Assembly (NCBI RefSeq): GCF_003610785.1
Contig: NZ_RAQQ01000011.1
Coordinates: 124,001 to 188,000, forward strand
Reading direction: 5' to 3'
DNA length: 64,000 bases
Source: Micromonospora globbae
Lineage (GTDB): Bacteria; Actinomycetota; Actinomycetes; Mycobacteriales; Micromonosporaceae
Position 1 is the stretch's first letter, and the number at the start of each line of letters is the position of its first letter. Under the pieces are notes generated by a model. It saw nothing but the letters and a program-made list of their open reading frames with translations, was not told the DNA's origin and made no database searches. This document shows positions 10,403-31,035 of this stretch, piece after piece. The position numbers and the translations under genes were made by a program.

Positions 10403-12232
10403 TCACCGGCGGCGGGTGCAGACCTCGTCGGCCGTGGCGACGGTGTCCGTGGACCAGACGACCGCCACGGTGAAGCAGTAGTCGTTGCTGGGGCTCAGCC
10501 CGTAGACGACGAAGCTGGTGGTGCCGGCGGGCAGGTCGGTGAGGGCCGACTTCGGCTGGCCGGCCCGTCCACCCGAGATGACCACGGGCCCCTCGCCGCC
10601 GGCCGGGTAGGTCCAGCGCAGCGCCACGTTGTCGCGGTTGTCGCGGAGGCTCACGCCGGTGGGTGGCGTACCGGGGGAGACGGTCGGACCCGCGGGGGCG
10701 GTGGGCGGCGCGTCGCTGGTCGTCGCCGCCGCGCCCGTCGTGGCGGGGGACCGTGCCGGGGGTGACGTGTCCCCGTCGACGCGGTTGAATCCGACGATCA
10801 CCGCGGCCGTGCCGAGCAGCACGACGACCACGCCGGCGACCACCAGGGGGACGAGCCGGCGCCCCGCCGGGGACGGCGGCCGGTGCACCGGCGCCGGCAG
10901 CAGCGGGGACGGCAGCAGCGGGGACGGCAGCAGCGGGGACGGCGGTTCGGGGGCGCGGCGTACCCGGTGCACGCCGTCGGCCTCCTCACCGGCCAGGCCG
11001 GCCACCGCGGGCGGCACCGGCGTCTCGGGCGCCCCGTCGTCGCGGCTCGGCGGTGGCCACCCGTCGTCGTACGCGGTCGGCGGCCACTCGCCGGCGACCG
11101 CGCCGGAATGCGCGCGGGCTCCCGACGTCGCCTCCCCGGCCGGCCGCGCGTCGTCCGGCCACGGGGCGTCGGCCGGCGCCGAGCCATCGGACCACGGGGC
11201 ATCGGCCCCCGCCCAGCCACCCGACCATGTGGCGTCCGCCGCCGTCGGGTCGTCCGGCCACGGTGTGTCGGCCCTCGGCGTCGGGTCGTCCGGCCACGAG
11301 GCGTCGTCGGGCGCGCCGGCGCTCGCCGGCGCGTCGGGCCACGGCGCGTCGGCGGCCGGTGCCGGCGGCTCGTCGCCGGTGTGCTCCGGCGGCCACCACG
11401 CGCGATCGGCCCCGGTCGGGTCGTCCACGGGCTGGCGTGGCACGGGGACCGTCGGCGGGTACGCCGGCCCGTCACCCTGGGGTGGGGTGCGGGCCGAGGG
11501 CACCACCGGGGCGTCCCGCGTGGCCGGTGAGGTCTCGGCGCAGACGTGGTCGGGGTTGGCGGCGGCCCGGGCGAGCGCCGCCACCTGGACGGCGAGCGGG
11601 TCGTCCACGGGGAGGTGCTGCCGGCAGAGTTCCCGGGCCAGGGCGAGGTTCTCGTGCGCCTCGGCGAACTGCCCGCAGTCGCGCTGCATGGCGCCGAGCC
11701 GGGCGAGCATCTTGATGCCGCTCGGGTGCCCGTCGCCGTACACCTCCCGGTGCAGCTCCCAGGCGTCCTGGAGGCGGTCGCGGGCGACCTGGCACTGCCC
11801 GCGGGCGTACTCGACGGTGGCCAGGTCGGCGTGGGCGGCGAGCACCCGCAGCGACTCGGGGCCGTCCTGCGCCGTCAACTCGATGATGACGTCCTGGTAG
11901 AGGCGGGCGGCCCGGGAGTGCGCGCCGACCCGGTGCAGCACGGCGGCCAGGGTCGCGGCGGCCGCGACGGTGCGGGGGTCGGAGCGGCCGTGCAGGCGGG
12001 TGTGCGCCGCGTACGCGTACGCCGCCCAGCCCCGGGCGGAGTGCGGCTCGCCGAGGGCGACCAGCACCCGGGCCTGGAGGCTCGCCGCCTCGGCGAGGTC
12101 GGGCGTGGCGTTGACGGGGCGCGGGTCGGCGTCGCTCAGCGCGTCGGACAGCAGCCGTTGCGCGCCGGCGAGGTCCCCCGTGGACACCAGCCGGTGCGCC
12201 TGGTCGGTGAGTTCGCCGAAGCCGGAGGGCAC
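10403..12232 (-). CDS. TPR protein with Pro/Asp-rich linker, membrane helix and FN3-like domain
   Basis: A 609-residue single-pass membrane protein. Residues 1-230 are tetratricopeptide-like helices (AQRLLSDALSDADP, YAAHTRLHGRSDPRTVAAAATLAAVLHRVG, LHREVYGDGHPSGIKMLARLGAM), typical of a protein-binding scaffold. Residues 240-400 are low complexity, with repeated WPDDPT/WSDGSA-like units, then PSPLL repeats near residue 435. A helix (LVPLVVAGVVVVLLGTAAVIVGF) is near 460-480. The last 90 residues form a fibronectin type III-like domain (VALRWTYP, YGLSPSNDYCFTVAV), probably outside the cell. GTG start at 12232. The function is unknown. It is transcribed away from the MarR gene upstream. Confidence 0.75.
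   Translation of the reverse strand: MPSGFGELTDQAHRLVSTGDLAGAQRLLSDALSDADPRPVNATPDLAEAASLQARVLVALGEPHSARGWAAYAYAAHTRLHGRSDPRTVAAAATLAAVLHRVGAHSRAARLYQDVIIELTAQDGPESLRVLAAHADLATVEYARGQCQVARDRLQDAWELHREVYGDGHPSGIKMLARLGAMQRDCGQFAEAHENLALARELCRQHLPVDDPLAVQVAALARAAANPDHVCAETSPATRDAPVVPSARTPPQGDGPAYPPTVPVPRQPVDDPTGADRAWWPPEHTGDEPPAPAADAPWPDAPASAGAPDDASWPDDPTPRADTPWPDDPTAADATWSGGWAGADAPWSDGSAPADAPWPDDARPAGEATSGARAHSGAVAGEWPPTAYDDGWPPPSRDDGAPETPVPPAVAGLAGEEADGVHRVRRAPEPPSPLLPSPLLPSPLLPAPVHRPPSPAGRRLVPLVVAGVVVVLLGTAAVIVGFNRVDGDTSPPARSPATTGAAATTSDAPPTAPAGPTVSPGTPPTGVSLRDNRDNVALRWTYPAGGEGPVVISGGRAGQPKSALTDLPAGTTSFVVYGLSPSNDYCFTVAVVWSTDTVATADEVCTRRR
10896..10940. repeat. 15-bp tandem repeat, three copies, inside the TPR gene
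   Basis: Three perfect copies of ggcagcagcggggac, encoding PSPLL repeats just before the membrane helix. In-frame unit length means copy number could change without breaking the gene. Confidence 0.85.
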
Positions 12233-17114: not shown

Positions 17115-17546
17115 TCAGCGGCCGGCGAGCAGCCGGTTGACCGCTGTGTCGACGTCCAGGTGCTCGGCCTCGCGGCCGCGCGGGACGACGACGTAGGTCC
17201 GCCGCAGGAAGCGCACCAGGACGCTCCTCGGCACCTCGAAGAGAGCGTTGCCGTCGGGTGACGACAGCGCCAGCGCGACGAAGTCGCCGCGCGGGGTGGC
17301 CCACGGCCACACCCGGACGTCGCCGATACCAGCCGGCTCGTCGAGACCCGTGACCAGCAGTTCCCGCGCGAACGACCAGCTGACGGCCTCGCCCCCCGCC
17401 GACTCGGCGTGGAACAGGACATGGACCGCATACGGGTCAGCAGGGTCGTAACGCAGGCTGGCACGCACCGGCAAGGCGGTGGCGTCAGGCGCGACGAGCC
17501 TTAGCGACGTCTCGACCTCTACGGTCGTCGGTCGGATGACACTCAT
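17115..17546 (-). CDS. ssgB: SsgB-like sporulation-specific cell division regulator
   Basis: A 143-residue SsgA-like protein. In sporulating actinomycetes SsgB marks division sites and recruits FtsZ. ATG at 17546 follows GGGGGAG. Family features are LPVRASLRYDPADPYAVHVLFH, WSFARELLVTGLDEPAGIGDVRVWPW, VALALSSPDGNALFEVP and a C-terminal helix HLDVDTAVNRLLAG. The length and the GDVRVWP core match SsgB rather than the more divergent SsgA-G proteins. It is monocistronic. The 270-nt upstream region is AT-richer than its surroundings and includes a TGAAT-N6-ATTCA repeat that may carry developmental regulator sites. Confidence 0.9.
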   Translation of the reverse strand: MSVIRPTTVEVETSLRLVAPDATALPVRASLRYDPADPYAVHVLFHAESAGGEAVSWSFARELLVTGLDEPAGIGDVRVWPWATPRGDFVALALSSPDGNALFEVPRSVLVRFLRRTYVVVPRGREAEHLDVDTAVNRLLAGR

Positions 17547-17819
17547 GGACGTTCTCCCCCCGGCACCGCTGCGGAACGCGCGTGTCCCGCTTTTCCCATA
17601 CTCAGGTGCTACTCCTGGCTACGCTCCGCCATACGCTGACTTCACCCAGTGGTGGGAAGGGGTTCGGAAAGGCCTCCTGAATGTGAAAATTCATGTAGGA
17701 TTTCCGGTTCTGCCCAGTGCGTCGTCCCGCCCGGCATCGGGTGGTTCAGTCGTCGACTTACTCCGGTAACGTCCAGTCGTCGGAAGGGGTGACGGTCCCG
17801 AGCGACACTAGGGGGTGAA

Positions 17820-18404
17820 ATGGTCACGAAACGATCCTCAGTGGATCCGATCGCGGCGCCCGGCCCACCGAAAGTCGCGGTCCGAGCAGCCGAAAAGCGG
17901 GGGTACGCGGTGCCGATGGAGCAGCACGACCGGTCCGGTCGGCCGGCCGTGGGTGACGGGACGCCGGAACGGGGCGCGGCAGGTGTCGCCCTCGCCGAAC
18001 GGCGGCGCCCCCGGTGGCGGCAGCGCCTGTCCCTGACCCTCGATCTCATCCGGGCGAACCCCACGGGCCGGATCGCCCTGAAGATCTTCGTGGCCATCGC
18101 CGGTGCGATCGTCGTCACGGTCGGCGTTGCCCTCATCCCCCTGCCCGGGCCGGGCTGGCTGCTGGTGATCGCCGGCCTCGGCATCTGGGCCGTGGAGTTC
18201 CACTGGGCCAAGCGACTGCTCGCCTTCACCCGCCGCAACGTCCAGAGCTGGACCCGGTGGGTGACGCGACAGTCACTCGCGGTGCGCTTCGTGCTGGGCG
18301 CGGTGGGCCTCGTCTTCGTGGCGGCCGTGCTCTGGCTCTCCCTCAAGTACAGCCTCGGCATCGACGTGGTCGCCCGGATCATGCACTACCTCGCGACGCA
18401 CTGA
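17820..18404 (+). CDS. TIGR02611/PGPGW-family membrane protein
   Basis: A 194-residue protein. ATG at 17820 follows AGGGGGTG. The first 80 residues are polar and probably cytoplasmic. Helices then follow: ALKIFVAIAGAIVVTVGVALIPLPGPGWLLVIAGLGIWAVEF, containing the hallmark PLPGPGW motif, and AVRFVLGAVGLVFVAAVLWLSL near the C-terminus. The family is widespread in actinobacteria and has no established role. It is the last core gene before tRNA-Val and the inserted element. An internal ATG at 17916 is an alternative start. Confidence 0.85.
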   Translation: MVTKRSSVDPIAAPGPPKVAVRAAEKRGYAVPMEQHDRSGRPAVGDGTPERGAAGVALAERRRPRWRQRLSLTLDLIRANPTGRIALKIFVAIAGAIVVTVGVALIPLPGPGWLLVIAGLGIWAVEFHWAKRLLAFTRRNVQSWTRWVTRQSLAVRFVLGAVGLVFVAAVLWLSLKYSLGIDVVARIMHYLATH

Positions 18405-18454
18405 CCCCGGATTCGCCGTCCGCCCACAGGATCAGGTACAGTCATCCGCGCTGA

Positions 18455-18526
18455 GGGCGATTAGCTCAGCGGGAGAGCGCTTCGTTCACACCGAAGAGGT
18501 CACTGGTTCGATCCCAGTATCGCCCA
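18455..18526 (+). tRNA. tRNA-Val (anticodon CAC)
   Basis: Acceptor stem GGGCGAT / ATCGCCC (18455-18461 and 18519-18525) with discriminator A. D arm GCTC...GAGC, anticodon stem CTTCG / CGAAG around loop TTCACAC (anticodon CAC, reading GTG), and T arm ACTGG-TTCGATC-CCAGT. CCA is not encoded. The 3' half is repeated at 23329-23376, so the tRNA served as an integration site; the left copy keeps the gene intact. Confidence 0.95.
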
Positions 18527-18530
18527 CGCA
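18484..18530 (+). repeat. Left attachment site (attL), 3' half of tRNA-Val
   Basis: 47 bp from the anticodon loop through the tRNA 3' end and four following bases. The sequence recurs at 23329-23376 with one inserted C. Homology continues past the tRNA for about 55 bp on both sides (ggccattccc..catcgggggt..cccgtacagcagc). Confidence 0.88.
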
Positions 18531-18534
18531 GGTC

Positions 18535-18569
18535 AAAGGCCATTCCCGGTCATCGGGGGTGGCCTTTTT
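18535..18569 (+). terminator. tRNA-Val terminator
   Basis: AAAGGCCA pairs with TGGCCTTT around a GC-rich inner stem, followed by TTTTT. The matching sequence right of the second tRNA copy has lost the T tract. Confidence 0.7.
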
Positions 18570-18617
18570 GCTGCCCGTACAGCAGCCGAGGTCGTTCTGT
18601 GCGGGCGCTACCGAGGT

Positions 18618-18952
18618 GTGGTGAACGTGGCCGACGTGCTGAGGGTCGAGGATCTTCGCCGGGTGTGCGGCATGCTGCTGGACGCAGCGGAGAAGCGGTT
18701 CGGCGCGGAGGTCGATCTGTCGGGCCTCGGTGTCGACCACTATTGGAACGTCGACCTGCGGTCCGCGTTCGAGCTGGCGCATGACCCGGCGGCGGCAATC
18801 GACGTCGGGCAGAGCAGTGACGACGTTGCGGAACTGCGCGCGCTGCTGCGCACGACATGCCGGTGCTCTGGCACGACCTGCAACACCTCGCGGGCGTTCT
18901 GCGGCTGCTGGCGTACCTCGACCTGCCAGCCGCCAGCACTGGCGACAGCTGA
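18618..18952 (+). pseudogene. Integrase-adjacent hypothetical gene, frameshifted
   Basis: The first 75 codons (ADVLRVEDLRRVCGMLLDAAEKRFG, VDHYWNVDLRSAFEL, SDDVAELRALLR) have strong coding character. At about 18850 the frame fails and a second frame carries the rest: DMPVLWHDLQHLAGVLRLL, then AYLDLPAA and a stop at 18950-18952. The joined protein would be about 110 residues and resembles small acidic proteins often found beside actinomycete integrases and cargo. One base change near 18848-18855 would repair it. It is inside the relic element, so decay is more likely than error. Confidence 0.6.
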
Positions 18953-18999
18953 CGGTGCACCCTGCGCATCTGAGCCGCCGGGACCTGACCGGGTGTGTG

Positions 19000-19405
19000 T
19001 CAGATGCCGAGGAAATCGCCGAGGCGCTTGAGGGCGTCGCGGGTCGCCTTCGATGAGACCTGGGTGTATCTCCATTGTCACGGAGAAACGGGCGTGCCGG
19101 GGAGCTGCATGGCGACTCTCGGGTGGACGTCGAGGTCGGCCAGGAGCGTGGCGCCGGTGCGGCGGGCGTCGTGAACGGTGATCGGCGTGACGTTGGCTCT
19201 CCCGCATCTCGTCTGCCAGGAGCGTTGGAAGTTGCGCGGCTCGATGGGTGTGCCGTGGCGGATGGTGAAGACGTCCTTGCCCTGGGCATAGCATTGGCAG
19301 GTCCGGGCCACCTGGTTGATCCAGATCTGCACGTCCCGCGACTGGAGCCGGTCGAGCCGATTGGCCCCGAGGCCGGGGGCGATGTAGCGGCGGACGAACG
19401 TCTCG
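19000..19405 (-). pseudogene. Tyrosine recombinase (integrase) remnant
   Basis: Reading leftward from 19405, the remnant keeps part of the core-binding domain (CETFVRRYIAPGLGANRLDRLQSRDVQIWINQ in order). It then jumps to the catalytic C-terminus (GTPIEPRNFQRSW, TVHDARRTGATLLADLDVHPRVAMQ), so the middle with the first catalytic Arg is deleted. After MQ, a 1-nt and a 2-nt loss disturb the frame, which then returns to KATRDALKRLGDFLGI and a stop at 19000. HxxR and other late motifs survive, but the protein is dead. Orientation toward tRNA-Val fits an att-adjacent integrase. Confidence 0.78.
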
Positions 19406-19424
19406 CAGGTCGCCAGCGCAACGT

Positions 19425-19565
19425 CAGCGCCTCACCGTGCCAGGCGAGACCGTCGCCGCCGAGCTGGTCCGCGACCTCGCCGCGAAGCCCTGGCCTCTCG
19501 CACGCTTGCATGGCCCGCACAAAGATCGTCTTTGGGGGAATGACGCAAGGGTGTTGACGGCTTAG
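19425..19565 (+). pseudogene. C-terminal fragment of an unidentified gene
   Basis: Forty-six codons with strong third-position GC (RLTVPGETVAAELVRDLAAK, then PWPLARLHGPHKDRLWGNDARVL) and a stop overlapping the end of the secreted-protein gene. No start is present. It abuts the integrase remnant, so it is probably a piece of another element gene exposed by deletion. Confidence 0.3.
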
Positions 19566-19975
19566 AAGTAGGGGTCCAGGTAGCTGCCCCAATTCCAGTG
19601 ACCGTCTACCGCGAAACCAATGTACGTGTTGATGGTGGCTGGGACCGAAGGCCCGTCCAGCACAGAGGTGAAGTAGTAGATGCCGTTACCTGGGTCGAGA
19701 CAGGCTTGCCACGTGTAGGTTCCGGCGGCGAGAGTTATGTCTCGGAGCCAGATGTTCTCAGAGCCTCTCACGGTGCCCCACGCGTACCGCCCGCTAGCCA
19801 ACGTGATGGACCTGGTTTGGCATGACCTAGCCATGGAGTCGTTAGGGCTTGCCGATATCCACTGGATCTTGTCGAGGTATGCGGTTTGGGCCGCCTGCGC
19901 GGGTGAACCTAGCGCCAAGAGTGCGGCAGTTGCCGTCACGACCACCGCGAGAAAGGCCCGAGTCCTCTTGAGCAT
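19562..19975 (-). CDS. Secreted protein of unknown function
   Basis: A 137-residue precursor. ATG at 19975 follows AAGGAGG. The signal peptide RTRAFLAVVVTATAALLALGSPAQAA is probably cleaved before QTAYLDKIQW. The mature protein (about 110 residues) has two Cys (SCQTRSITLAS and ACLDPGNGIYYF), repeated SG(R/T)Y.W patterns, and is rich in aromatic residues, suggesting a small extracellular beta-sheet protein. I recognise no family. Codon use is less GC-biased than in neighbours, consistent with recent transfer in the relic element. Confidence 0.75.
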   Translation of the reverse strand: MLKRTRAFLAVVVTATAALLALGSPAQAAQTAYLDKIQWISASPNDSMARSCQTRSITLASGRYAWGTVRGSENIWLRDITLAAGTYTWQACLDPGNGIYYFTSVLDGPSVPATINTYIGFAVDGHWNWGSYLDPYF

Positions 19976-20564
19976 CTACGCCTCCTTGGTCGACGCTCGG
20001 CATCGACCCTCGTCATGCTGATATAGCGGACTGGCCGGACCGGTCCTCCGCCCAGTTATCGAGCCGGACAGTAGGCATCCCCGTGCTATGCAGACGGATG
20101 GAGGCTAGCAGATCAACCCGGCCCCGCGGCCTCATCGCTCCACTTAGTACCGATCATCGCCTCGAGGCAACAGTGCCCGGTCACAGGTCAGTGCGGATCG
20201 TCGCCGGTGGATACTTCTGCTGTTCGTGCCGCCTCCCGGATCGACCACCTCGCCATCCAGCACTGGGTGACGGAGCTCGGCGCCGTGGCAGAGCCGCCGG
20301 CGGCCTTCCGAGGCCGTCCAAGACCGGTGGCACGCCGTCGACGAACCCACCTCGTCGCGCTCGTCTGCGCTGGCGCACGGTGTAGCACGAACGCCCGCCG
20401 AGTAGCCACGGCGCTCCACACGGCCGGACTATCCCGTACGTCCCGCGCCTGGCGTTCACACCGAAGCGTCATGGGCAGTCTTCCACTGCTCGGGACCGGC
20501 CGCCCGTCCCCGGCTTTGGCGAAGCTGTCCCGACCGAGCGGGCCGGATCCCGTACGCTTCGGCC
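19976..20564. other. Gap in the relic element without a supported gene
   Basis: Almost 600 nt with no convincing coding frame. On the minus strand, 20188-20256 could encode a fragment reading WSIREAARTAEVSTG, which looks like a helix-turn-helix N-terminus cut off by a stop. This may be a decayed DNA-binding or excisionase gene, but it is too short to call. The promoter of the secreted-protein gene should lie near 19985-20060. Confidence 0.4.
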
Positions 20565-21170
20565 GTGTTCACCCCGATCCGCACGCGCCGGCTCACCCTT
20601 CGGCCGGTCACGATGGACGACCTTGACGACGTGTACGCGTACCAGCGCCGGCCCGACGTGTGCCGCTGGATGCTCGGCAATGAGCCGCGCAGCCGCGAGC
20701 AGTCGCGGGAGTCGGTGGCGGCGATGACAAACGAGGACGCGCTGCGTGCCGAGGGCGACGTCCTGACCTTGGCCGCGGAGGCGAATGGGCGGGTGACCGG
20801 CACCGTTGAGCTGGTCTGGCGGAGCCAGGCCGACCGCACCGCCGAGATCGGGTACGTTTTCAACCCGGAGTTCTCGGGCCGGGGGCTGGCCACCGAGGCC
20901 GTGGCGGCGCTGCTGGGATGGGGCTTCGAGGAGTTCGGCCTGCACCGCGTCTACGGCCGGTGCCACGCCGGCAACGAGGCATCGGCCCGGCTGATGACCC
21001 GGCTGGGGATGCGGTGCGAGGCGCGGCATGTCGAGAGCTACCTGTTCCGCGGCGAGTGGACCGACCAGCTCGTGTTCGCGATGTTGGCCCGGGAATGGCT
21101 GTCGCGACCGGGACAAACGAGGGGGCGAGGCACCGTTGCGCCGGCGCGGAAGTCGGTGCGCGGTGTGTGA
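20565..21170 (+). CDS. GNAT-family N-acetyltransferase (RimJ/RimL type)
   Basis: A 201-residue acetyl-CoA-dependent acetyltransferase. GTG at 20565. It opens with TRRLTLRPVTMDDLDDVYAY, the typical RimJ/RimL start, then has AEIGYVFNPEFSGRGLATEA, where the R/Q-x-x-G-x-A pyrophosphate loop is SGRGLA, and LHRVYGRCHAGNEASARLMTRLGM (C-terminal Asn/Leu-Gly motif). The substrate could be a protein N-terminus, antibiotic or small amine. About 35 extra C-terminal residues are basic. It lies within the relic element and is separate from the HTH operon by 90 nt. Confidence 0.88.
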   Translation: MFTPIRTRRLTLRPVTMDDLDDVYAYQRRPDVCRWMLGNEPRSREQSRESVAAMTNEDALRAEGDVLTLAAEANGRVTGTVELVWRSQADRTAEIGYVFNPEFSGRGLATEAVAALLGWGFEEFGLHRVYGRCHAGNEASARLMTRLGMRCEARHVESYLFRGEWTDQLVFAMLAREWLSRPGQTRGRGTVAPARKSVRGV

Positions 21171-21260
21171 GGGGTTATAAGGGCGCAGGCAGGCCGGTAG
21201 CGTTGGTGGGACGGCGGCCCGGGGGCCGATGGTGCATCCCGCGCTACGAGGAGGTTCGGG

Positions 21261-22472
21261 ATGGATTCCTTGCCGGAACTGACCTTCGGGCAGCGGTTGA
21301 AGGTCTACCGGGAGCGGTCGGGGAAGACGCGCGCGGTGCTCGGTGGGTTGGTGGGTCGCAGCGCCGAGTGGGTCAAGGCGGTGGAGACCGACCGGATCCT
21401 GCCGCCGCGCATCCACATGCTGGATCGCATCGCGCGTGCGCTCAAGGTCGACGTGTCAGCGTTGATCGGGGAGTTGAGCGACCGGTCCGCCGTGGTCAAC
21501 GGGCCGGAGCATCCGGCACTTGCGTCGGTACGGGACGCCGTGAACCGCTTCGTACTCTCCGAGGAGGCTCCCGCCGAGTCGTTGACGAGCTTGAGAGATC
21601 GGCTTGCGATGGCGTGGCGGGCACGCCATCAGGCGTCCGACCACCGAACGGTGCTGGGCGGGTTGCTGCCGGGGCTGCTGCATGATGTGCAGCGCGCCGC
21701 GTTGGGGTACGAGGGTGACGAGCGCCGGCAGGCGCAGGCGCTGTTGGCGGAGACGCTTGGGCTCACGCAGATGTTTCTCGCCTACCAACCCGCCGCCGAG
21801 CTGTTGTGGCGGGTCGCGGACCGGGCGATGGTGGCGGCGCAGGAGTCCGGCAACCCGGAGGCGGTGGCGTGCGCGGCATGGTTCCTGTGCCAGGTGCATC
21901 GGGACGCCGGCGACTGGGACACGGCTATGGCGGTGACACTGGACGTCCTGTCGACGCTGGAGCCACGGACGGCGGACGGGAACACGAATCTGCTGGCGCT
22001 CTGGGGTGCGCTGAACTTCGAGGCCGCGTACACCGCCGCTCGTGCTGGTGAGGAAGGCCGCGCCTGGCGGTACTGGGATCGCGCGGACCGGGTGGCGCAG
22101 CGCCTGCCGCAGGACTTCTACCAGCCGCAGACGTCATTCTCCCGCGTCATCATGGGCGCTCACGCGGTGACGGTGGCGGTGGAGTTGCAGAAGTCCGGTG
22201 AGGCGGTGCGGCAGGCACGCCGTCATGATTCGGCGGCGATCCCGTCGAGGCCGCGTCGGGCGCGTCATCTGATCGAGGTCGCGCGGGCGCACTACGGCAA
22301 GGACGACAAGGAACTGGCCGTGACAACCCTCCGGCGGGCCTACGAGTCGGCCCCGGAAACGATTCGCTTCAACGGGTACGCCCGCCAGATCACCTTGGAC
22401 CTGCTCGATGGCCCGCGTTCCACCCGTGCCGACGCCCGTGATCTCGCCCTGAAGGTCGGGCTTCTCTCCTGA
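21261..22472 (+). CDS. XRE-type helix-turn-helix regulator with TPR-like domain
   Basis: A 403-residue regulator. ATG at 21261 follows GAGGAGG. Residues 8-70 form an XRE helix-turn-helix (FGQRLKVYRERSGKTRAVLGGLVGRSAEWVKAVETDRILPP, in order). Residues 100-390 are alpha-helical tandem repeats (LLWRVADRAMVAAQESGNPEAVACAAWFLCQVH, and others) of the TPR-like type seen in peptide-sensing or cytosolic signal-binding regulators. It heads the cargo of three coupled Cys-motif mini-genes 150 nt downstream and probably controls them. The ligand is unknown. Confidence 0.85.
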   Translation: MDSLPELTFGQRLKVYRERSGKTRAVLGGLVGRSAEWVKAVETDRILPPRIHMLDRIARALKVDVSALIGELSDRSAVVNGPEHPALASVRDAVNRFVLSEEAPAESLTSLRDRLAMAWRARHQASDHRTVLGGLLPGLLHDVQRAALGYEGDERRQAQALLAETLGLTQMFLAYQPAAELLWRVADRAMVAAQESGNPEAVACAAWFLCQVHRDAGDWDTAMAVTLDVLSTLEPRTADGNTNLLALWGALNFEAAYTAARAGEEGRAWRYWDRADRVAQRLPQDFYQPQTSFSRVIMGAHAVTVAVELQKSGEAVRQARRHDSAAIPSRPRRARHLIEVARAHYGKDDKELAVTTLRRAYESAPETIRFNGYARQITLDLLDGPRSTRADARDLALKVGLLS

Positions 22473-22625
22473 TCTACGGGTACGAACCGTACCCGTTCCG
22501 CTCGGCGACCGCCCGTAGCTTCTTGCTCACGGGATGCGGCGGGCGGTGCGGCTGTCGCCTGGTCGTCGCGTCCCTCTCAGCTGCGAGGGCATGAGGCCGC
22601 CCTCGTGATCGACGAGGGAGGGTAT

Positions 22626-22811
22626 GTGCGGCGTGTCTCGTATGACGACTACCTCTCGGCTACCGCGCTGACTCTCGCCCGCAGGCATCGGCCGGTGTGG
22701 TCATGGAAGCTCTGGCGGCGCGTCTGCCGCTGTGGAGCAGACCTTCCCTGCCGTGCCCGGCATCGGGTTCCGATCAACCGTGGCCATTGGCCGCAGGAGG
22801 ATGAGCAGTGA
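22626..22811 (+). CDS. Cys-motif mini-protein, first of coupled trio
   Basis: A 61-residue basic protein. GTG at 22626 is favoured because GAGGGAGG precedes it by 4 nt; GTG 22605 is in frame but lacks a ribosome site. The core reads HRPVWSWKLWRRVCRCGADLPC, ending CRARHRVPINRGHWPQED, a C-x-C-x5-C-x3... cluster that may bind zinc. Its stop overlaps the next start (GTGA). Function unknown. Homologous small proteins are commonly seen beside HTH/TPR regulators in actinomycetes. Confidence 0.7.
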   Translation: MRRVSYDDYLSATALTLARRHRPVWSWKLWRRVCRCGADLPCRARHRVPINRGHWPQEDEQ

Positions 22812-22987
22812 GAAGCGGGCAGGAGCAGACGATCGTCGCCGTGCACATCCGAGGGCTCGATGGCATGTGCGTTGGCTGCCGCGCCTGGTGGTCACGGCTG
22901 ACTCCGTACCCGTGCTGGCAGGTGGAATGGGCGACCAGCCAGCAGGCCCGGACAATCACCGCTCGTTTCCTGGAGGGTGTGCGGTGA
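22808..22987 (+). CDS. Cys-motif mini-protein, second of coupled trio
   Basis: A 59-residue protein from GTG at 22808, overlapping the previous stop by 4 nt. The sequence contains GLDGMCVGCRAWWSRLTPYP and CWQVEWATSQQARTITARFL, with a CxxC and a third Cys 13 residues later. The overlaps on both sides (GTGA and GTGA) argue for a real gene, although it is short. No family name can be given. A metal-binding or protein-interaction role is only a guess from the Cys spacing. Confidence 0.68.
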   Translation: MRSGQEQTIVAVHIRGLDGMCVGCRAWWSRLTPYPCWQVEWATSQQARTITARFLEGVR

Positions 22988-23292
22988 CCACCCATGGCCC
23001 GGTCATGCCGATCTGGAGCTGCGGAGGCTGCGACCTGCCCTGGCCCTGCCCGACGCGGAAGCGGGAGCTGCGGGCCGAGTATGCCGACGCCCCGGTGTCG
23101 CTGGCCCTCTACCTCGGCTCCTACCTCGTCCAAGCCACCGAGGACATGCCCTGGACACCGGCCGGCGTGCTGCACCGCCGCTTCCTCGGCTGGACCAGGG
23201 CGGCCGACCAGCCCATGCCAGCAGTACAGCAGCGAAGTACAGCAACTGTGCCAGCCGAACCGAGCCGAGAAGCGCCTCAACAGGCCGTCTGA
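22984..23292 (+). CDS. Cys-motif mini-protein, third of coupled trio
   Basis: A 102-residue protein from GTG at 22984, overlapping the previous stop. It begins TTHGPVMPIWSCGGCDLPWP and continues with a third Cys, a C-x2-C-x5-C motif common in small actinomycete proteins (W-x-C-x-x-C-x4-P-C). LRAEYADAPVSLALYLGSYL and WTPAGVLHRRFLGW follow. The last 25 residues are low-complexity Thr/Pro/Glu and may be disordered. It ends 36 nt before the right att repeat, so the trio is the outermost cargo. Confidence 0.72.
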   Translation: MTTHGPVMPIWSCGGCDLPWPCPTRKRELRAEYADAPVSLALYLGSYLVQATEDMPWTPAGVLHRRFLGWTRAADQPMPAVQQRSTATVPAEPSREAPQQAV

Positions 23293-23328
23293 CCTCGTAC
23301 CAAGCCCGGTCCAACCGGCTCGCCGAGA

Positions 23329-23376
23329 GTTCACACCGAAGAGGTCACTGGTTCGATCCCCAGTATCGCCCACGCA
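23329..23376 (+). repeat. Right attachment site (attR), second tRNA-Val 3' copy
   Basis: Repeats 18484-18530 with one extra C in the T stem, which would break the tRNA T arm. There is no 5' tRNA half here, so this is not a tRNA gene. Homology to the left flank continues to about 23420, with an internal deletion that removes the terminator T tract. Confidence 0.88.
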
Positions 23377-23403
23377 CGTAAAGGGCCATTCCCTTTCATC
23401 GGG

Positions 23404-23476
23404 GGTGCCCGTACAGCAGCTCGCCGTGCCCCAGCACCTGCATGGGGGCTCGCAGGTGGACGTCCAGGGCGGCCAG
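23404..23476 (-). pseudogene. Second integrase C-terminal fragment, outside the right att site
   Basis: About 24 codons reading leftward as LAALDVHLRAPMQVLGHGEL, closely like the LADLDVHPRVAMQ end of the left integrase remnant. It sits immediately right of the tRNA copy, the place expected for the integrase of a second, tandemly inserted element whose remainder is lost. Too short to act. Confidence 0.55.
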
Positions 23477-23483
23477 CCGGGGT

Positions 23484-24563
23484 TCACCAGCTGATTCTGG
23501 CCGCCACCGGCAGGTGGTCGCTGCCGGTGGCCGGCAGCACCCACGAGCTCGTCGGCTCCACGCCGCGGACCAGGATCTGGTCGATCCGCACCATCGGGAA
23601 CGCTGCCGGCCAGGTGAAGCCGAAGCGGTCCCCGGCCGCGTCGTGAGCCGAGCGCAGTTGCGAGGTGATGCCGGCGAACGCGCGGTCGTCCGTGGTGCCG
23701 TTCAGATCGCCGAGCAGCACCACCCGCTCGTTCTGCTCGGCGGCGATGGCCTCGCCGAGCGCCTGCGCGTTCCGGTCCCGGTGGGCCGTCGAGAAGCCCG
23801 CCCTGGGATTGACCCGTACGGACCCCAGGTGGGCCACGTACACCGCCAGCGGGCCCTGGTCCGTGCTCACCGTGGTGCGCAGCGCCCGGGTGTAGCCCAT
23901 CCTGATGTCGACCGGCTGGGTGGCCGCCAGCGGCCCGGCGTCCATCTTGATGTCGACCGGCTGGGTGTCCGACAGTGGCAGCTTGCTCCACAGCCCGACC
24001 GTGCCCTGCACCGCGTGGTACGGGTACGCCTCCGACAGCGCATCCTCGTACGTGCCCCGGGCCTGCTCGGTCAGCTCCACCAAGGCCAGCACGTCCGCCC
24101 CGGAGGCGGCCAGGTCGCGGGCCGTGCCGACCGGGTCGGAATTGCCGGCGCCGACGTTGTGCTCGGCCACGGTGAGGTCGCCGCCGGGGTGGGACCTGTC
24201 GCCCAGCAGCCCGCCGAAGAGGTTCAGCCACACCACGGCCGGCACCAGCAGCGCGACCACCGCGGAGGCGGAGCGACGCCACAGCGCCCCGATCAGCAGT
24301 ACGGGGATGAACAGACCGAACCACGGCAGGAAGGTCTCCACCAGGCTGCCGACGTTCCCGATCCGGTTCGGGATCTTCGCATGTAGCAGCATGAGGAGCC
24401 CGAGCAGGAGTGCCAGCGCCGCGATCGGTCGGCCGCGCTTCCAGGGGCCCGGCCGGGAGGCGGCGCGTATCGCCCGGCGGATGCGGGCACGGCCGGTTCC
24501 GGCGCCGGCATCCCGGCTGCTGGCGTCGTCCCGCCCGGACTCCGCCTCGTCCACCCTCGTCAT
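23484..24563 (-). CDS. Membrane-anchored endonuclease/exonuclease/phosphatase family protein (VanJ-like)
   Basis: A 359-residue protein with three hydrophobic helices near residues 45-120 (PIAALALLLGLLMLLHAK, LPWFGLFIPVLLIGALW, SAVVALLVPAVVWLNLFGG). An extracytoplasmic EEP catalytic domain follows: AEHNVGAGN, DVLALVELTEQ, YVAHLGSVR, LLGDLNGTTDDRAF, and final SDHLPVAARI. This topology is that of VanJ-type teicoplanin-resistance phosphatases and related lipid-pyrophosphate hydrolases; the exact substrate is not shown. A 20-bp direct repeat (23903-23922 and 23948-23967) marks an in-frame 15-codon duplication around TQPVDI(K/R)M. Confidence 0.88.
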   Translation of the reverse strand: MTRVDEAESGRDDASSRDAGAGTGRARIRRAIRAASRPGPWKRGRPIAALALLLGLLMLLHAKIPNRIGNVGSLVETFLPWFGLFIPVLLIGALWRRSASAVVALLVPAVVWLNLFGGLLGDRSHPGGDLTVAEHNVGAGNSDPVGTARDLAASGADVLALVELTEQARGTYEDALSEAYPYHAVQGTVGLWSKLPLSDTQPVDIKMDAGPLAATQPVDIRMGYTRALRTTVSTDQGPLAVYVAHLGSVRVNPRAGFSTAHRDRNAQALGEAIAAEQNERVVLLGDLNGTTDDRAFAGITSQLRSAHDAAGDRFGFTWPAAFPMVRIDQILVRGVEPTSSWVLPATGSDHLPVAARISW

Positions 24564-24943
24564 GTCTGTCCTCGCTCACGTGCCGGTCACTGCTGCGGCC
24601 TCGGGTCTCGGGTGAGGTCGGCCGGGCCGGTCAGGTGGTCGTCGGGTGCCCCGACCAAGGCTCTCCACCGTGTTCCGGATACCGGCGGCAGCGGTGAGCA
24701 GGAGCATCCGGATCCCGGCGTCGGACCCGGCGGGGCTCCGGCCCACCTCGTCACCCGTGCTCTCCGTATCCCTCGTCTTCCGGCAATACGGTCTCAAGCG
24801 GGAGTTAAGGGTTCTGTAAAGGCCCGCCGGAGCCATCCGATCGTGCCGTGGATTCGGTGACAGATCCTCCCTGGGCGCCGACGCGGCTGCGCCTGCCCGG
24901 GGCGTCCGTCAGGTTCCATGAGCGGTGGGGAGCGCGGGCGGCC
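24564..24943. other. Intergenic region upstream of the VanJ-like gene
   Basis: No supported gene in about 380 nt. It contains two similar half-sites 11 bp apart, GTTAAGG (24804-24810) and TGTAAAGG (24815-24822), the spacing typical of OmpR/PhoB-type response regulator boxes. They could regulate the leftward VanJ-like gene. Confidence 0.4.
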
Positions 24944-25168
24944 TCACATCCGGGCTCTCAGCACATCCCACCTCGCCGCCCGGCGCGGCCGGGTCGGGAA
25001 GCCGTGCTCGACCAGCCAACGGACCGCCACCAGGCTGCGCCACGACCACCATCCGCGGATCACGTCGAGGTCGACATCGGTGCGGTAGCCGGCGACCACG
25101 TCGTCAAGGTGCTCCTCGTGTCCGAGCGTCAGGACGGCGAGGTCGTACAGGGCGTCGCTCTGGCGCGG
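24944..25168 (-). pseudogene. C-terminal fragment of an aminoglycoside-phosphotransferase-like protein
   Basis: Seventy-five codons without a start: SDALYDLAVLTLGHEEHLDD, VVAGYRTDVDLDVIRGWWSW, RSLVAVRWLVEHGF and a stop at 24944. This is the typical helical C-terminus of APH/choline-kinase-like phosphotransferases, including the GY..DVDLDVIRGWW segment. The ATP-binding and HGDxxxxN catalytic parts are missing; upstream sequence belongs to an unrelated gene. A deletion remnant in the accessory zone next to the tRNA island. Confidence 0.65.
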
Positions 25169-25180
25169 TAGCGTGTCGGC

Positions 25181-25339
25181 ATGTACGAGGCGCCCGAAAG
25201 CGACGATTACGAGGCCGAGTCCGAGCCGGTGCGGGTCGTGCCGGAGGCGACCGCTGCGGGGGACTGGTTCATCCTCGCCGCCATCGCGGTCGCGGTCGCA
25301 GGTCTGCTCGGGTGGCGTCGATGGAGCCGACGCAGCTAG
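25181..25339 (+). CDS. Small single-helix membrane protein, leaderless
   Basis: A 52-residue protein: acidic N-terminus (YEAPESDDYEAESEPVRVVP), one helix (WFILAAIAVAVAGLLGW) and a basic tail (RRWSRRS), giving an N-out/C-in topology. No ribosome site, but TAGCGT lies 6 nt before the ATG, the -10 spacing of leaderless actinomycete transcripts. Unknown function. The clear composition zoning and codon bias support it despite its size. Confidence 0.6.
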   Translation: MYEAPESDDYEAESEPVRVVPEATAAGDWFILAAIAVAVAGLLGWRRWSRRS

Positions 25340-25351
25340 GCCGTCGAGAAG

Positions 25352-26587
25352 TCACGCCTCGGAGTCGGGGTTGCCGGATGCCTCCTGCCCGATCGGCGAG
25401 GCGGAGAACTCCAACGACCGTCTCCGGCTCCGCAGCGCGTCGAGTAGCGCGACCAGGGCCAGCACCCCGGCAACCACGCTCAACCCGACCATCGGCGTCC
25501 CGTGGACCAACGCCGGCGTGAGCAGCAACAGGGCCGCCAAGCCGGTCATCTGGGATCGGGGAGCGCTGCCGAAGATCTCGTACTCCAGCCGCATCCGGGC
25601 GACGAGGAAGAGCACCGGGCCGCCTACCACGAACAGAAGCCAGCTTGGCCGCGGCGGCCCGTACGGATGATCGATCACCAGCTCGTAGCCGACCGCGGTG
25701 ACGAGCACGCTGAGCACGACCAGCAGATGCGTCCGTTCCGACGCTGCGCCCAGCCGGCCGGGCATGGCCGCCCGGCCAAACGCCTCGGTCAGCAGCAGAC
25801 CGGCGCGGTGGAAGTAGATCCGCCAGAGCAGCGCGCTGGTGGCGAACGCGATTCCGAAGGCGGCGGCCCGCCACGCCGAGTATTCCGTCCCGCTGAAGAC
25901 CACGCCGATGACCAGAATCGACTCACCCAGCGCGATGAGGAAGATCTGCTGGTAGCGGTCGGCAAGATGCGTCCCGGCGATCCGCCAGCGGCCCACCGCC
26001 GAGGCCCCGAGCCGCGGCAGCGGCCAGCCCAGGGCCCAGGCGAGGTAGTCGCCAGCGAGGGCGGCAACCCACAGTGGCAGGCGAAGGTCGTCCGGGCCCA
26101 ACGCGCCGGCCAGCCACAGCGGAGCGGTCGCCGCCGACCACGCGGCAAGCCGGAACGGCACCAGCCGTCGCGGATGGCCACGCAGCGCGGCGGCGACCAC
26201 CAGCGGCCGCACCACCATCACCAACAGGTACGCGACCGCGAACGGCAGCGCTCGCTCCTCCATGGCACGTGGCAGCGTCACCGCCATGACGAGGCCGGCG
26301 AACATGGTGCCGACCACGACGGCCTGGATGATCGGCCGCTCTGGTTCGTAGCGACTGGTGATCCAGGCGGTGTGCGACCAGATCAGCCAGAGCGCCAGGA
26401 AGAGCAGCAGCGTACGCGCACATCCCGTGACGAGCTGCCAGCCCGTGTCATCGTTCAGACCGGCAAATCGTTGCGAGACCCGGGTGAGGGCCACGACGAA
26501 GGCAAGGTCGAAGAAGAGCTCCAGGAATGTGGCGCGGCCCGAACTCCTGGGAGGGCGTAGCAGGTCCGCACCGCCTCCCACCGCCAT
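25352..26587 (-). CDS. Low temperature requirement protein A (LtrA) family membrane protein
   Basis: A 411-residue polytopic membrane protein of the LtrA family, first linked to growth of Listeria at low temperature; its biochemical role is unknown. ATG at 26587 follows GGAGGCGGGACC; a GTG at 26665 is an upstream alternative. It has the family signature ATFLELFFDLAFVVALTRVS near the N-terminus and LADRYQQIFLIALGESILVIG in the middle, and about ten hydrophobic segments. The C-terminus is charged. It is monocistronic, 180 nt after the dehydrogenase operon end. Confidence 0.9.
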   Translation of the reverse strand: MAVGGGADLLRPPRSSGRATFLELFFDLAFVVALTRVSQRFAGLNDDTGWQLVTGCARTLLLFLALWLIWSHTAWITSRYEPERPIIQAVVVGTMFAGLVMAVTLPRAMEERALPFAVAYLLVMVVRPLVVAAALRGHPRRLVPFRLAAWSAATAPLWLAGALGPDDLRLPLWVAALAGDYLAWALGWPLPRLGASAVGRWRIAGTHLADRYQQIFLIALGESILVIGVVFSGTEYSAWRAAAFGIAFATSALLWRIYFHRAGLLLTEAFGRAAMPGRLGAASERTHLLVVLSVLVTAVGYELVIDHPYGPPRPSWLLFVVGGPVLFLVARMRLEYEIFGSAPRSQMTGLAALLLLTPALVHGTPMVGLSVVAGVLALVALLDALRSRRRSLEFSASPIGQEASGNPDSEA

Positions 26588-26766
26588 GGTCCCGCCTCCG
26601 TCCGCCTCCCGCCGCACCAACGAGCCGACTGCGAGAGGCGTTGCTCCGGGACCGGCGGCGGACACCGCATTGTCGTTGTGGCGGCACAGGCGATCGCCGG
26701 TTCAGCCACCAGCGGGCAACCGCGGCAAGACCGGTGTCTTCCCGGCCCGGACGAAGGTCGAGTGGG

Positions 26767-27720
26767 TCAGGTCAGCGTCCGGATCGGGTTGCCGTCGAGG
26801 AAGGCGCCGATGTCGTCCACGGCGTCACGGAAGAACGTGGCGTAGTTCCGCTCGGTGACATAGCCGAGGTGCGGCGTGGCGAGCACGTTCGGCAGCGTAC
26901 GGAAGTCATGGCCGGCGGGGAGCGGCTCCTCGTCGAACACATCCAGCCCGGCCCCCGCGATCCGCCCCTCGCGCAGCGCGGACGCCAGGGCGGACTGGTC
27001 GACGATCGCCGCCCGCGAGGTGTTGACCAGGTAGGCGGTGGGCTTCATCGCCGCGAGTTCCCGCGCGCCGACGAGGCCACGCGTCCGGTCGCCGAGCACG
27101 AGGTGAACGGAGACGACGTCGGAGTCGGCGAGCAGGGCGTCCGGGCTCGGGGCCAGCCGCGCGCCGGCCGCCTCGGCCCGCTCCCGCGTCAGGTTCTGGC
27201 TCCAGGCCAGCACGTCCATGCCGAACGCCCGCCCGACCGCCGCCACCTGCGATCCGATCCTGCCCAGGCCGAGCAGCCCGAGGGTGCGTCCGTGCAGGTC
27301 GGTGCCGAGGGTGTGCTGCCAGGGACCGCCGCCGCGCAGCGCGGTCGCCTCGGGCACCAGGTGACGGGCCAGGCCGAGGATCAGCGCCCAGGTCAGCTCG
27401 ACGGTCGAGGTCCAGCCGCCGCCGGTGCCGCTCACCGTGACACCGTGCGCCCGCGCCGCCTCCAGGTCGATGGCGGCGTTGCTCATGCCGGTGGTGACGA
27501 GCAGCCGCAGGTGGGGCAGCCGGTCGAACACCTCGGCGGGGAACGGCGTGCGCTCCCTCATGGCGACCACGATCTCGTAGTCCTGGATGGCCGCCACGAG
27601 ATCGTCGGCGCTGGTGAAGTGCTCGCGGAAGCTGGTGGCCCGGACTCGGGACCAGTCCGCCAGCCCGAGTGCCACCCCCTGGTAGTCGTCCAGCACGGCG
27701 CAGCGTAGGTCGGTTGACAC
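26767..27720 (-). CDS. D-2-hydroxyacid dehydrogenase family protein
   Basis: A 317-residue NAD(P)-dependent dehydrogenase. GTG at 27720 follows AAAGG. The nucleotide-binding loop is GLLGLGRIGSQVA, substrate-binding Arg is in VNTSRAAIVD, the Asp/Glu relay is in AGLDVFDEEPLP, and catalytic His is in TPHLGYVT. The opening VLDDYQGVALGLADWSRV resembles phosphoglycerate dehydrogenase-like enzymes of soil bacteria. It is the third gene of an operon (MBL hydrolase, aldo-keto reductase, this gene) probably repressed by the divergent MarR. Confidence 0.9.
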   Translation of the reverse strand: MSTDLRCAVLDDYQGVALGLADWSRVRATSFREHFTSADDLVAAIQDYEIVVAMRERTPFPAEVFDRLPHLRLLVTTGMSNAAIDLEAARAHGVTVSGTGGGWTSTVELTWALILGLARHLVPEATALRGGGPWQHTLGTDLHGRTLGLLGLGRIGSQVAAVGRAFGMDVLAWSQNLTRERAEAAGARLAPSPDALLADSDVVSVHLVLGDRTRGLVGARELAAMKPTAYLVNTSRAAIVDQSALASALREGRIAGAGLDVFDEEPLPAGHDFRTLPNVLATPHLGYVTERNYATFFRDAVDDIGAFLDGNPIRTLT

Positions 27721-27767
27721 GACGAAGGATCCGCCTTTCGTGTAGGTGGGTGCGTGCGGCGCCGGGG

Positions 27768-28745
27768 TCACCGCTCCAGCATGCGCAGGCCGGCTTCGTC
27801 GTGGGTGTCGCCGACAGCGGGGGGAAGGTTGTCGAGCTTCGCCAACTGTTCCGCGGTCAGTTCCACGGCGTCGGCGGCGGTGTTCTCCTCGACGCGGGCC
27901 ACACGCTTGGTGCCGGGGATGGGGGCGATGTCGTCGCCCCGGCTCAGCAGCCAGGCCAGTGCGATCTGTGCCGGGGTGGCACCGGCTTCGGCGGCGATGG
28001 CTTGGACCTCGTCGGCGATTCGCAGGTTGCGTCGGAAGTTCTCGCCGGTGAAGCGCGGGTTGTTCTTCCGCAGGTCGGTGTCGTCGAAGTCGCTGGTCGA
28101 GCGGATCTGCCCGGTGAGGAAGCCGCGTCCGAGGGGCGAGTAGGGCACGAAGCCGATGTTCAGCTCGCGCAGCAACGGCAGCACCTGCGCCTCGGGGTGC
28201 CGGGTCCACAGGGAGTACTCCGACTGGACGGCGGTGAGGGGGTGTACGGCGTGGGCGCGGCGGATCGTCTCCGGTCCGGCCTCGGACAGGCCGATGTGGC
28301 GGATCTTGCCCTCGGTGACCAGCTCGGCCAGTGCCCCGACCGTGTCCTCGATGGGCGTGTTCGGGTCGACCCGGTGCTGGTAGTACAGGTCGATGTGGTC
28401 GGTGCCCAACCGCTTGAGCGACCCTTCGACGGCGGTGCGGATGTTGGCCGGGCTGCTGTCGGGCTGTCCTGCCTCACCGCGCACATGCGAGATCAGGCCG
28501 AACTTCGTCGCCACCACGGCCTGGTCGCGGCGGCCCTTGAGTGCCTTGCCGAGAAGTTCCTCGTTGAGGTACGGACCGTAGAACTCGGCGGTGTCCAGGT
28601 GCGTGACACCCAGGTCCAGGGCCCGGTGGATGGTGCGGATCGACTCGGCGTCGTCCGTGCCGGCTCCGGTGTAGGCGTAGGACATCGATACCAGGCCCAG
28701 ACCGATACGGGAGACCTCCAGGTCTCCCAGCTTGATGTACTTCAT
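27768..28745 (-). CDS. Aldo/keto reductase
   Basis: A 325-residue NADPH-dependent oxidoreductase with the (beta/alpha)8 fold. ATG at 28745 follows GGAGAAC. Catalytic residues appear as Asp ([10 protein letters not shown]), Tyr in the same motif, Lys (VATKFGL) and His (YYQHRVDP). The cofactor site is [17 protein letters not shown]. It resembles the AKR13-type reductases ([13 protein letters not shown]). It is the second gene of the MBL/AKR/dehydrogenase operon and may detoxify aldehydes or ketones generated under the MarR regulon. Confidence 0.92.
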
Positions 28746-28870
28746 CAGCGTTCTCCGTTCCTCTGCCAGGTGGTAGGCGTTGCTGGCGCCGCTGAGCGCG
28801 GCGATGGCGATCTGCTTGTTGTCTCGGTGCGCGGCGGCTCGCGGCCGTTCCAGGGCCGGGTGGCCGACGG

Positions 28871-29764
28871 TCAGGCGACGGGGACCCAGGTGAACCGGCC
28901 GTCGGGACGGCGCTCGGCGCGGCCGAAGACCACGTCGGCGAAGTGGCAGCCGTAGCCGACGGTGTCGGGGCGGCTCAGCTCGTGGACGAGGCGGCGGCGG
29001 TGCTCGGCGGATTCGGCGGGGTCGTGGTCGATGCCGCAGGACCACTCGGTGTGGGTGACCTGGATCGGCGCGTGCAGCGCGTCGCCGAACGCGATGAGCC
29101 GCCGGCCGCCGCCGGTGATGGTGTACGTGGTGTGGCCCACGGTGTGTCCGGCCGCGAACGACGCCCGCACGCCGGGGAAGATCTCCTCGCCGTCCTCGAT
29201 CTCACGGACGCGGGGTGCGAAGGCGGCCAGACGGTCCTCGGTCGCCCCGCCCTGGGCGGCCAGATCGCGTCGCTGCCACTCGGGTGCGGCGACGAGGTGG
29301 GTGGCGTGCCCGAACGGGTGCGTGCCGGTGCCGGGCGCGGTGCTCCACGCCCAGCCCAGGTGGTCGGTGTGCAGGTGGGTGATGGCGACGGCCTCGATCC
29401 GGCTCGGCTCCCGGCCCAGCCGCCGCAGGCTGTCCAGCAACTCGCCGCCGTGGATGCTTCCGTACAGCGGGTTGGTCGGGTCGTCGGGGTAGGACTCGGG
29501 TCCGAACCCGGTGTCGATGAGCAGCGCCCGCTCACCCCGCTCGACCAGCAGCCCGCCGATGCTCGCGACCAGGAAGCCGCCGTCGTCGAGATGATCGGGG
29601 TACGCCGCCCAGTCGGCGTGGGTCGCGGCGGGCAGCCAGCCGCCCGGTTTGAGGCGCACCCCCCCGTCCGGGACGTGGGTGATGGTCAGGTCGCCCAGGG
29701 AGAGCGTACGCACCCGCGATGCGGTGGTCAGTCGTGAACGGTCGAAATCGGGCGCCGTGGCCAT
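28871..29764 (-). CDS. MBL-fold metallo-hydrolase
   Basis: A 297-residue metallo-beta-lactamase-fold hydrolase. ATG at 29764 follows AAGG. Metal ligands are THLHTDHLG (HxHxDH), His in [10 protein letters not shown], Asp in AFGDALH and His in YGCHFADV. It looks like the lactonase/arylsulfatase-like clade with the DGG motif ([11 protein letters not shown]) near the N-terminus. First gene of the three-gene operon. The promoter (TTGCAA-17-GTAACT) overlaps MarR-type operators shared with the divergent marR gene. Confidence 0.9.
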
Positions 29765-29818
29765 GTGGTCCTTGCCTCGTGTGCGAAGAGGTGCCGCCGG
29801 GCGGCGGTGCGGACCGAA

Positions 29819-29868
29819 AGTTACAACTAGAACGGATCTAGTTGCAACTAATTCAGTTGGAGTAAACT
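29819..29868. promoter_or_regulatory. Divergent promoters with multiple MarR-type operators
   Basis: Leftward promoter: TTGCAA (29842-29847, self-complementary), 17-nt spacer, GTAACT (complement of 29819-29824). Rightward -10: TAAACT (29863-29868), 6 nt before marR ATG (leaderless). Overlapping palindromes are CAACTAG-N7-CTAGTTG (29824-29844), TAGTTGCAACTA (29839-29850) and CAACT-N5-AGTTG (29845-29859). Binding would block both promoters. Confidence 0.65.
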
Positions 29869-29874
29869 CGTGCC

Positions 29875-30300
29875 ATGGCCACCGAGCGCGAGACCCGAGC
29901 CCAAGCCGACCGCCAGCTGTGCGGCTTGGTCAACGGTCTTGCCAGCCAGATCGAAGCCCACCTTCGGGTCCGGGCGACCACCCTCGGTCTGACCGCCTCG
30001 CAGGGCACGGCGCTGCGTGAGCTGACCCGACCCATGACCCTGCGCGAACTCGCCGAACGGATGAGCTGCGAGCCCTCCAACGTCACCTTCGTCGCCGATC
30101 GCCTCGAAGAGCAGGGCTACCTCGAACGCCATCCGCATCCCGACGACCGTCGTGCCAAGCAGCTCGTCCTGACACCCAAGGGCACCGAACTGCGCGAACG
30201 CCTGCTCGCGTTGCTCGCCGAAGACTCGCCCCTGGCCCCGCTGGCTCCCGAAGAGCGGGACGTCCTGCAGCACCTGCTCACCCGCGCTCTCATTCGCTGA
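29875..30300 (+). CDS. MarR-family repressor
   Basis: A 141-residue regulator. Winged-helix core MTLRELAERMSCEPSNVTFVADRLEEQGYLERHPHPDDRRAKQLVLTPKG in order, with the DxRxK wing. ATG at 29875 is leaderless, with TAAACT 6 nt upstream. Divergent from the MBL/AKR/dehydrogenase operon with palindromic sites in between, so it most probably represses that operon and itself in response to a phenolic or aldehyde-like ligand (inferred). Confidence 0.92.
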   Translation: MATERETRAQADRQLCGLVNGLASQIEAHLRVRATTLGLTASQGTALRELTRPMTLRELAERMSCEPSNVTFVADRLEEQGYLERHPHPDDRRAKQLVLTPKGTELRERLLALLAEDSPLAPLAPEERDVLQHLLTRALIR

Positions 30301-30420: not shown

Positions 30421-30440
30421 TTATCCCGTACGGTTGCCCC

Positions 30441-31016: not shown

Positions 31017-31035
31017 CCTTTTGTTACCCGAATTT

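Follow-up and report, generated by a model that had tools for sequence, protein, structure and literature searches.

The window analysed here, a stretch of 64,000 nt of Micromonospora globbae (contig NZ_RAQQ01000011.1, bases 124001-188000), lies on contig 11 of a 7.09-Mb genome assembled in 95 contigs. Positions refer to the window unless a locus is stated. ARAGORN identifies a single tRNA gene in it, tRNA-Val(CAC). Family I denotes the element family defined by a shared left end and integrase at tRNA-Val. From left to right, the features at the locus are:

18455..18527, plus strand: tRNA-Val(CAC), the integration target, its 3' half inside the repeat (ARAGORN)
18484..18530, plus strand: att copy 1, 47 bp (sequence comparison)
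18535..18570, no strand: left end of element A, a hairpin followed by CCCGTACAGCAGC, the family-I left end (sequence)
18618..19031, plus strand: small ORF between att and integrase (121-aa homologue at the same place in locus L017)
18999..19413, minus strand: remnant of integrase A, without its N-terminus, with a 534-bp gap at 19272/19273 and a disrupted frame close to the C-terminus (comparison with relatives)
19425..19503, plus strand: short stretch resembling a single place on contig 37 of the same genome and three places in two relatives (sequence similarity)
19562..19975, minus strand: cargo gene for a small protein with an N-terminus resembling, by eye, a signal peptide (homologue in L112)
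20454..20466, plus strand: possible third att trace, 13 bp exact (repeat comparison)
20565..21170, plus strand: cargo gene for a GNAT acetyltransferase (profile and homologue matches)
21261..22472, plus strand: HTH_31 regulator gene of the right-hand module, intact, 403 aa (domain match, homologues)
22605..22811, plus strand: small ORF of the right-hand module (ORF list; no Pfam match)
22984..23292, plus strand: small ORF smallR of the right-hand module (near right att sites in relatives; no Pfam match)
23319..23328, plus strand: right-end motif CTCGCCGAGA of element A (sequence comparison with relatives)
23329..23376, plus strand: att copy 2, 48 bp, one inserted C (sequence comparison)
23377..23424, no strand: left end of element B, its hairpin carrying a deletion (sequence comparison)
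23425..23476, minus strand: tail of integrase B, 52 bp (comparison with genus genomes)
23484..24563, minus strand: VanJ-like gene, abutting the relic at about 23476/23477 (NCBIfam VanJ match)

The comparison genus is Micromonospora in the wide (GTDB) sense, Salinispora included. A search with the regulator gene yielded 64 loci, picked by that gene, among them 35 from Micromonospora and 4 from Salinispora. Near-complete genomes numbered 54 with that of the window, and left-end counts are based on the other 53; the integrase B tail and the VanJ-like gene were compared with 160 genus genomes, again with the window's own. Loci L017, L032 and L172 belong to genomes G134, G047 and G073, L060 to M. 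zingiberis and L068 to M. radicis.

Att copy 1 consists of the tRNA-Val 3' half plus three more bases. The first-pass annotation, made from the sequence alone, had described this 47-bp half as repeated at 23329-23376, which holds, the second copy being extended to 48 bp by the inserted C. The two copies share a 32-bp exact block followed by 18 identical bases that start a 65-bp pair at 82%, and they lie 4845-4846 bp apart. Their surroundings can be read by comparison with relatives, whose arrays have two to four att copies and the order att, left end with integrase, cargo, right end, att. Att copies that start a family-I element are followed by a hairpin, then CGTACAGCAGC, then the integrase gene, which lies on the opposite strand and has its C-terminal end closest to att. 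Ahead of att copies distant from the tRNA stands a right-end motif, for example CTCGCCGAGA, CTTGCCGAGA or CCTGCCGTGA. Since in the window a left end follows att copy 1, a right-end motif precedes att copy 2, and a left end and an integrase tail follow att copy 2, bases 18531-23328 constitute an att-bounded element A and bases 23377-23476 the stump of an element B. The homology said to continue past both repeats is thus real, and it represents the common left end of an element family, not the chromosomal flank.

Could the second repeat be a chance tRNA fragment in ancestral DNA that happens to lie next to 52 bp resembling an integrase? Only the short length of the B fragment favours this explanation, which is contradicted already by the succession of right-end motif, att, left end and integrase tail in the order typical of the family, and which we consider hardly conceivable. 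For att copy 2 itself a chance origin is excluded by the preceding motif together with the rarity of the 21-base pattern formed by right end and att start, for which 0.00 matches were expected (100 shuffles). An element right end precedes the repeat and an element left end follows it.

The integrase facing the tRNA on the left is broken, as had been recognized: the remnant at 18999-19413 reads toward the tRNA gene, and the hairpin of the element A left end sits between the two convergent genes. The 534-bp loss at 19272/19273 was determined from L015, L017, L018, L026 and L032; L004 and L068 give a gap of the same size, and L012, itself broken, one of 531. Similarity to the integrases of relatives stops at 19413, and the longest open piece scores 24.2 bits against the Pfam integrase, under the curated cut-off of 27.1. 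Beside att in element A, the integrase gene is present only as this broken remnant. Outside the window, the best integrase match in the genome's own assembly is 40% identical over 382 residues, and no intact family-I integrase was found there, so element A is probably immobile today unless an element arriving at the site moves it in cis.

The second integrase tail placed outside the second repeat is likewise real. Its 52 bp are 79-87% identical to stretches in many genus genomes; the matches in L018 (twice) and L029 fall within the integrase at the left end of a tRNA-site element, beside an att copy. These data bear on the possibility that only one foreign element is present and that the sequence after att copy 2 is a duplicate of A's own left end. 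In its favour, the same left-end family occurs at both copies and the two integrase tails are 85% identical over 39 bp. However, the B tail matches other genomes (up to 87% over 52 bp) no less closely than it matches A, the damage is not the same, and arrays of two or more elements are common at the site. A single element is therefore very improbable.

Element A is composed of the left end, the small ORF, the integrase remnant, a mosaic at 19414-21141 and the right-hand module at 21142-23376. The small ORF at 18618-19031, which has no Pfam or NCBIfam match at E 0.01, is also present in L013/L053, L017, L018 and L172, a subset of the elements. The mosaic contains a small-protein gene, short dispersed pieces and the GNAT gene, and it has no match at E 1e-8 in the other loci compared. 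The stretch at 19425-19503 may be a scrap of an IS110-type transposase; the frame at 19422-19562 has no Pfam match. The small protein of 19562-19975 is probably secreted. Close homologues of the GNAT gene occur elsewhere in several genomes, and a homologue in G073 (88%) lies inside another att-bounded integrase relic at the same tRNA. The right-hand module is conserved across many loci. Its regulator gene is intact and yields dN/dS values of 0.095-0.18 against eight homologues, which indicates that it was functional for most of its past and does not imply present usefulness. Preferential keeping of the regulator gene in relics is not claimed because the regulator-bearing loci had been picked by that gene; among 20 tRNA-side loci, some of them short, only L013 matches it at the DNA level. 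The ten ORFs scanned between 17820 and 24563 have no match to a Rep family, nor to an FtsK/SpoIIIE-type transfer protein.

Within the mosaic, the 13 bp at 20454-20466 may be a right-end/att trace of a further element, in which case more than two insertions would have occurred and A would be a fusion of two relics. The trace is identical to the start of att over 13 bp (0.04 matches expected) and matches the right end plus att start at 18 of 21 positions (0.00 expected; 100 shuffles each). Its M. musae counterpart matches att still further, at about 24 of 28 positions as judged by eye, and the regulator relic and the GNAT relic occur separately in relatives. Against this, the trace and the bases on either side of it are homologous (35 of 40 bases) to a segment of M. 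musae that lies 660 bp upstream of this regulator gene, so the trace may have been inherited as an internal piece of the element. Moreover, no left end follows 20454-20466, and the trace was picked post hoc from a repeat list. At first accepted as strong evidence, it was later weakened by the M. musae homologue, and a third element within A is doubtful.

Further att copies downstream of the same tRNA are common in the genus. A 41-base att pattern with at most two mismatches matches in all 54 near-complete genomes, the window's own included, and 23 of them have a further same-strand copy, again with at most two mismatches, within 50 kb downstream; the window's genome is not among the 23, its att copy 2 being uncounted because of the indel. 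Three of the 23 (G047, G109, G132) have two further copies. The G047 tally presumes that the chromosome is circular, and the first of its further copies is part of a second tRNA that has a left flank of its own; leaving G047 out reduces the counts to 22 and 2. On contig 1 of G047 the tRNA-Val left flank occurs twice (17156-17575 and 6707456-6707876), with about 18 kb between the two occurrences on the assumption of circularity. A family-I left end follows the tRNA in 28 of the 53 other near-complete genomes and is absent from 25. According to our reading, a single integrase ORF of at least 400 aa lies in the first 3 kb in only eight of the 28 (G047, G051, G056, G080, G101, G102, G132, G134), indicating that decay is common at the site; the other 20 have a shorter or a split integrase in that interval, or none was detected there.

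A full-length integrase goes together with RepSA in L017, where both lie between att copies 9.0 kb apart, in L068, and in L032, which also encodes an HTH_17 protein in the usual place of the excisionase. Seven ORFs scanned from the L017 family-I element included no FtsK-like gene. An FtsK-like gene and a NUDIX gene lie between the first two att copies of G109, in an element whose integrase is 25% identical to that of family I. G073 has the tRNA copy and three further att copies within about 10 kb, the last interval (L172, 8085 to 10462) holding integrase pieces and the GNAT homologue. M. zingiberis (L060) has att copies at 5014, 8958 and 12057; the last interval, 8958-12057, contains a small ORF as well as the regulator, with no integrase match at E 1e-6. 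L060 includes neither the tRNA nor its left flank, so that its position at tRNA-Val is presumed. These decayed mini-elements of M. zingiberis and G073 are the nearest counterparts of element A. In L045 (12070) and L051 (11374), right ends of the regulator module are followed by only the first 13-16 att bases, either decayed att copies or insertions at other sites.

The chromosome to the left of the tRNA is conserved: the immediate flank (to 18400) is present in 20 of 20 other complete genomes, and 18030-18454 in 120 of 121 genus genomes including the window's own, the exception being G074. To the right, pieces of 24600-36000 match at scattered places in 20 other genomes, G089 being without a match, and the same holds, in 11 other genomes each, for pieces of 45000-64000 and for contig bases 207001-226000, which lie 83-102 kb right of the window start. 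Exceptions, by our reading of the coordinates, are 25343-26654, found in G121 at about 82 kb downstream of the tRNA, and 51492-52402, which lies 10, 19, 73 and 82 kb downstream in G081, G127, G002 and G133, respectively. No empty tRNA-Val site with a syntenic right flank was found in the genomes searched, and an empty-site alignment is not available because synteny with these genomes is absent to the right of the array.

The VanJ-like gene beside the relic matches NCBIfam VanJ with an E value of 5e-161 and 535.6 bits, below the 700-bit cut-off. Close copies (88-94%) occur in 13 other genomes and weaker ones (66-74%) in more. All 13 close matches begin at or after 23477 and none enters the integrase tail, so this genome alone shows the junction at about 23476/23477. 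Some matches to the integrase tail extend to 23481-23483, and the junction is therefore located only to about 7 bases. Eight of the 13 VanJ-like loci were examined (L033-L040); they lack the tRNA-Val left flank, and in pairwise comparison (E 1e-20, more than 300 bp, stretches of 17.5-19.5 kb) only the gene itself aligns, over 1.0-1.2 kb. Regarding the gene as the native right flank is untenable for now, with 0 of the 160 genomes except the window's own matching across the junction. As an observation on the gene itself, it is a single gene found in many settings, the eight loci having no flanking DNA in common, and in comparison with seven of the eight loci dS is 0.13-0.23 and dN/dS 0.39-0.73.

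Directly observed are the two att copies, the two left ends, the integrase fragments and the fuller elements of relatives. They are best explained as the decayed remains of at least two elements that once lay head to tail in tRNA-Val, a reading to which we assign a probability of about 0.9. Two same-orientation left ends, each directly behind a copy of the tRNA 3' half, require two insertions at one site, in support of the original proposal; the sequence itself gives no order of insertion. Also supported is the near-complete loss of the second element, of which the left end and the 52-bp integrase tail, about 100 bp, are left. The case for element B rests on these 100 bp. We infer the recombination events and the order in which they occurred, as well as the deletion that produced the 23476/23477 junction. 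As expected from its family, a tyrosine integrase would recombine the attP of the circular element with the tRNA 3' half. The incoming element would restore the 3' half and add its own hairpin behind it, so that the tRNA would stay whole. Raw folding energies of the 75 bases 3' of the tRNA range from -29.7 to -44.6 kcal/mol over 54 of 54 sites, and a long hairpin was seen by eye at all of them, with sequences that are unlike between element families. Stable but unlike hairpins at all 54 sites fit the idea that each element supplies the tRNA with a new terminator. Insertion at the tRNA 3' end would have occurred twice or more and been followed by deletions in both elements. Element A would have lost the integrase core and any replication and transfer genes, keeping both ends and the regulator module beside unrelated cargo. 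Element B would have been deleted from inside the integrase outward, right att included, which would have fused its tail to the VanJ-like gene.

The relic is a fossil of a RepSA-type (pSAM2-like) AICE, of an ordinary and already published kind. Element A is inserted in a tRNA 3' end and bounded by direct repeats; it keeps both ends and cargo, its mobility genes are lost or broken, and it has fuller kin at the same site, as decayed AICE remnants do. A left end and an integrase tail directly after att copy 2 are indicative of tandem accretion. Since A contains no Rep or Tra gene, the AICE label depends on the element ends, the integrase remnant and the relatives; the filing of family I itself as an AICE rests on integrase, RepSA, HTH_17 and tRNA target. 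CIMEs are cis-mobilisable elements, att-bounded cargo without working recombination genes. Element A resembles them in this respect and differs in that it still carries an integrase remnant.

With pSAM2-type AICEs, surveyed in PMC3218068, the locus shares the tRNA 3'-end target, the direct repeats and the integrase facing the tRNA, and relatives of its element contain RepSA and HTH_17; unlike them, element A has no Rep, Xis or Tra gene and its integrase is broken. The same survey describes tandem AICEs in Frankia sp. EAN1pec (tRNA-Lys) and S. avermitilis (tRNA-Arg). The Frankia tandem likewise has two elements head to tail in one tRNA gene; its elements excise singly or together, whereas those of Micromonospora are broken. 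PMC9513070 documents accretion and decay of AICEs in a Streptomyces population, including accretion at tRNA-Arg, with several same-repeat elements in one tRNA gene and remnants consisting of a partial integrase, cargo and two repeats, for which mobilisation in cis is suggested; one family lies in a tRNA-Val gene with a 46-nt repeat. Compared with this Streptomyces case, the genus is another one, the outer element is reduced to about 100 bp, and the search for a conserved right flank found none. A title-level literature search, mostly of journals outside subscription, yielded no title on the Micromonospora tRNA-Val site.

Taken alone, the locus is a common genomic fossil, and its value is modest, comparative and lies in the hotspot: the genus-wide comparison documents tRNA-Val(CAC) as a site at which AICE-like elements accumulate and decay, and the many decay stages at one site offer material for studying the speed of integrase loss and renewed movement of cargo between att copies. 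The att-bounded regulator module, the HTH_31 gene with its small ORFs, might even be a travelling minimal cassette under purifying selection that lacks its own integrase and would be moved in cis by any AICE landing at the same att, with M. zingiberis and this genome as examples; we consider this unlikely.

The tRNA-Val 3' half itself exists in two versions with matched T-stem changes, ACTGG/CCAGT and GCTGG/CCAGC (L013-L032), and both occur at element-carrying sites.
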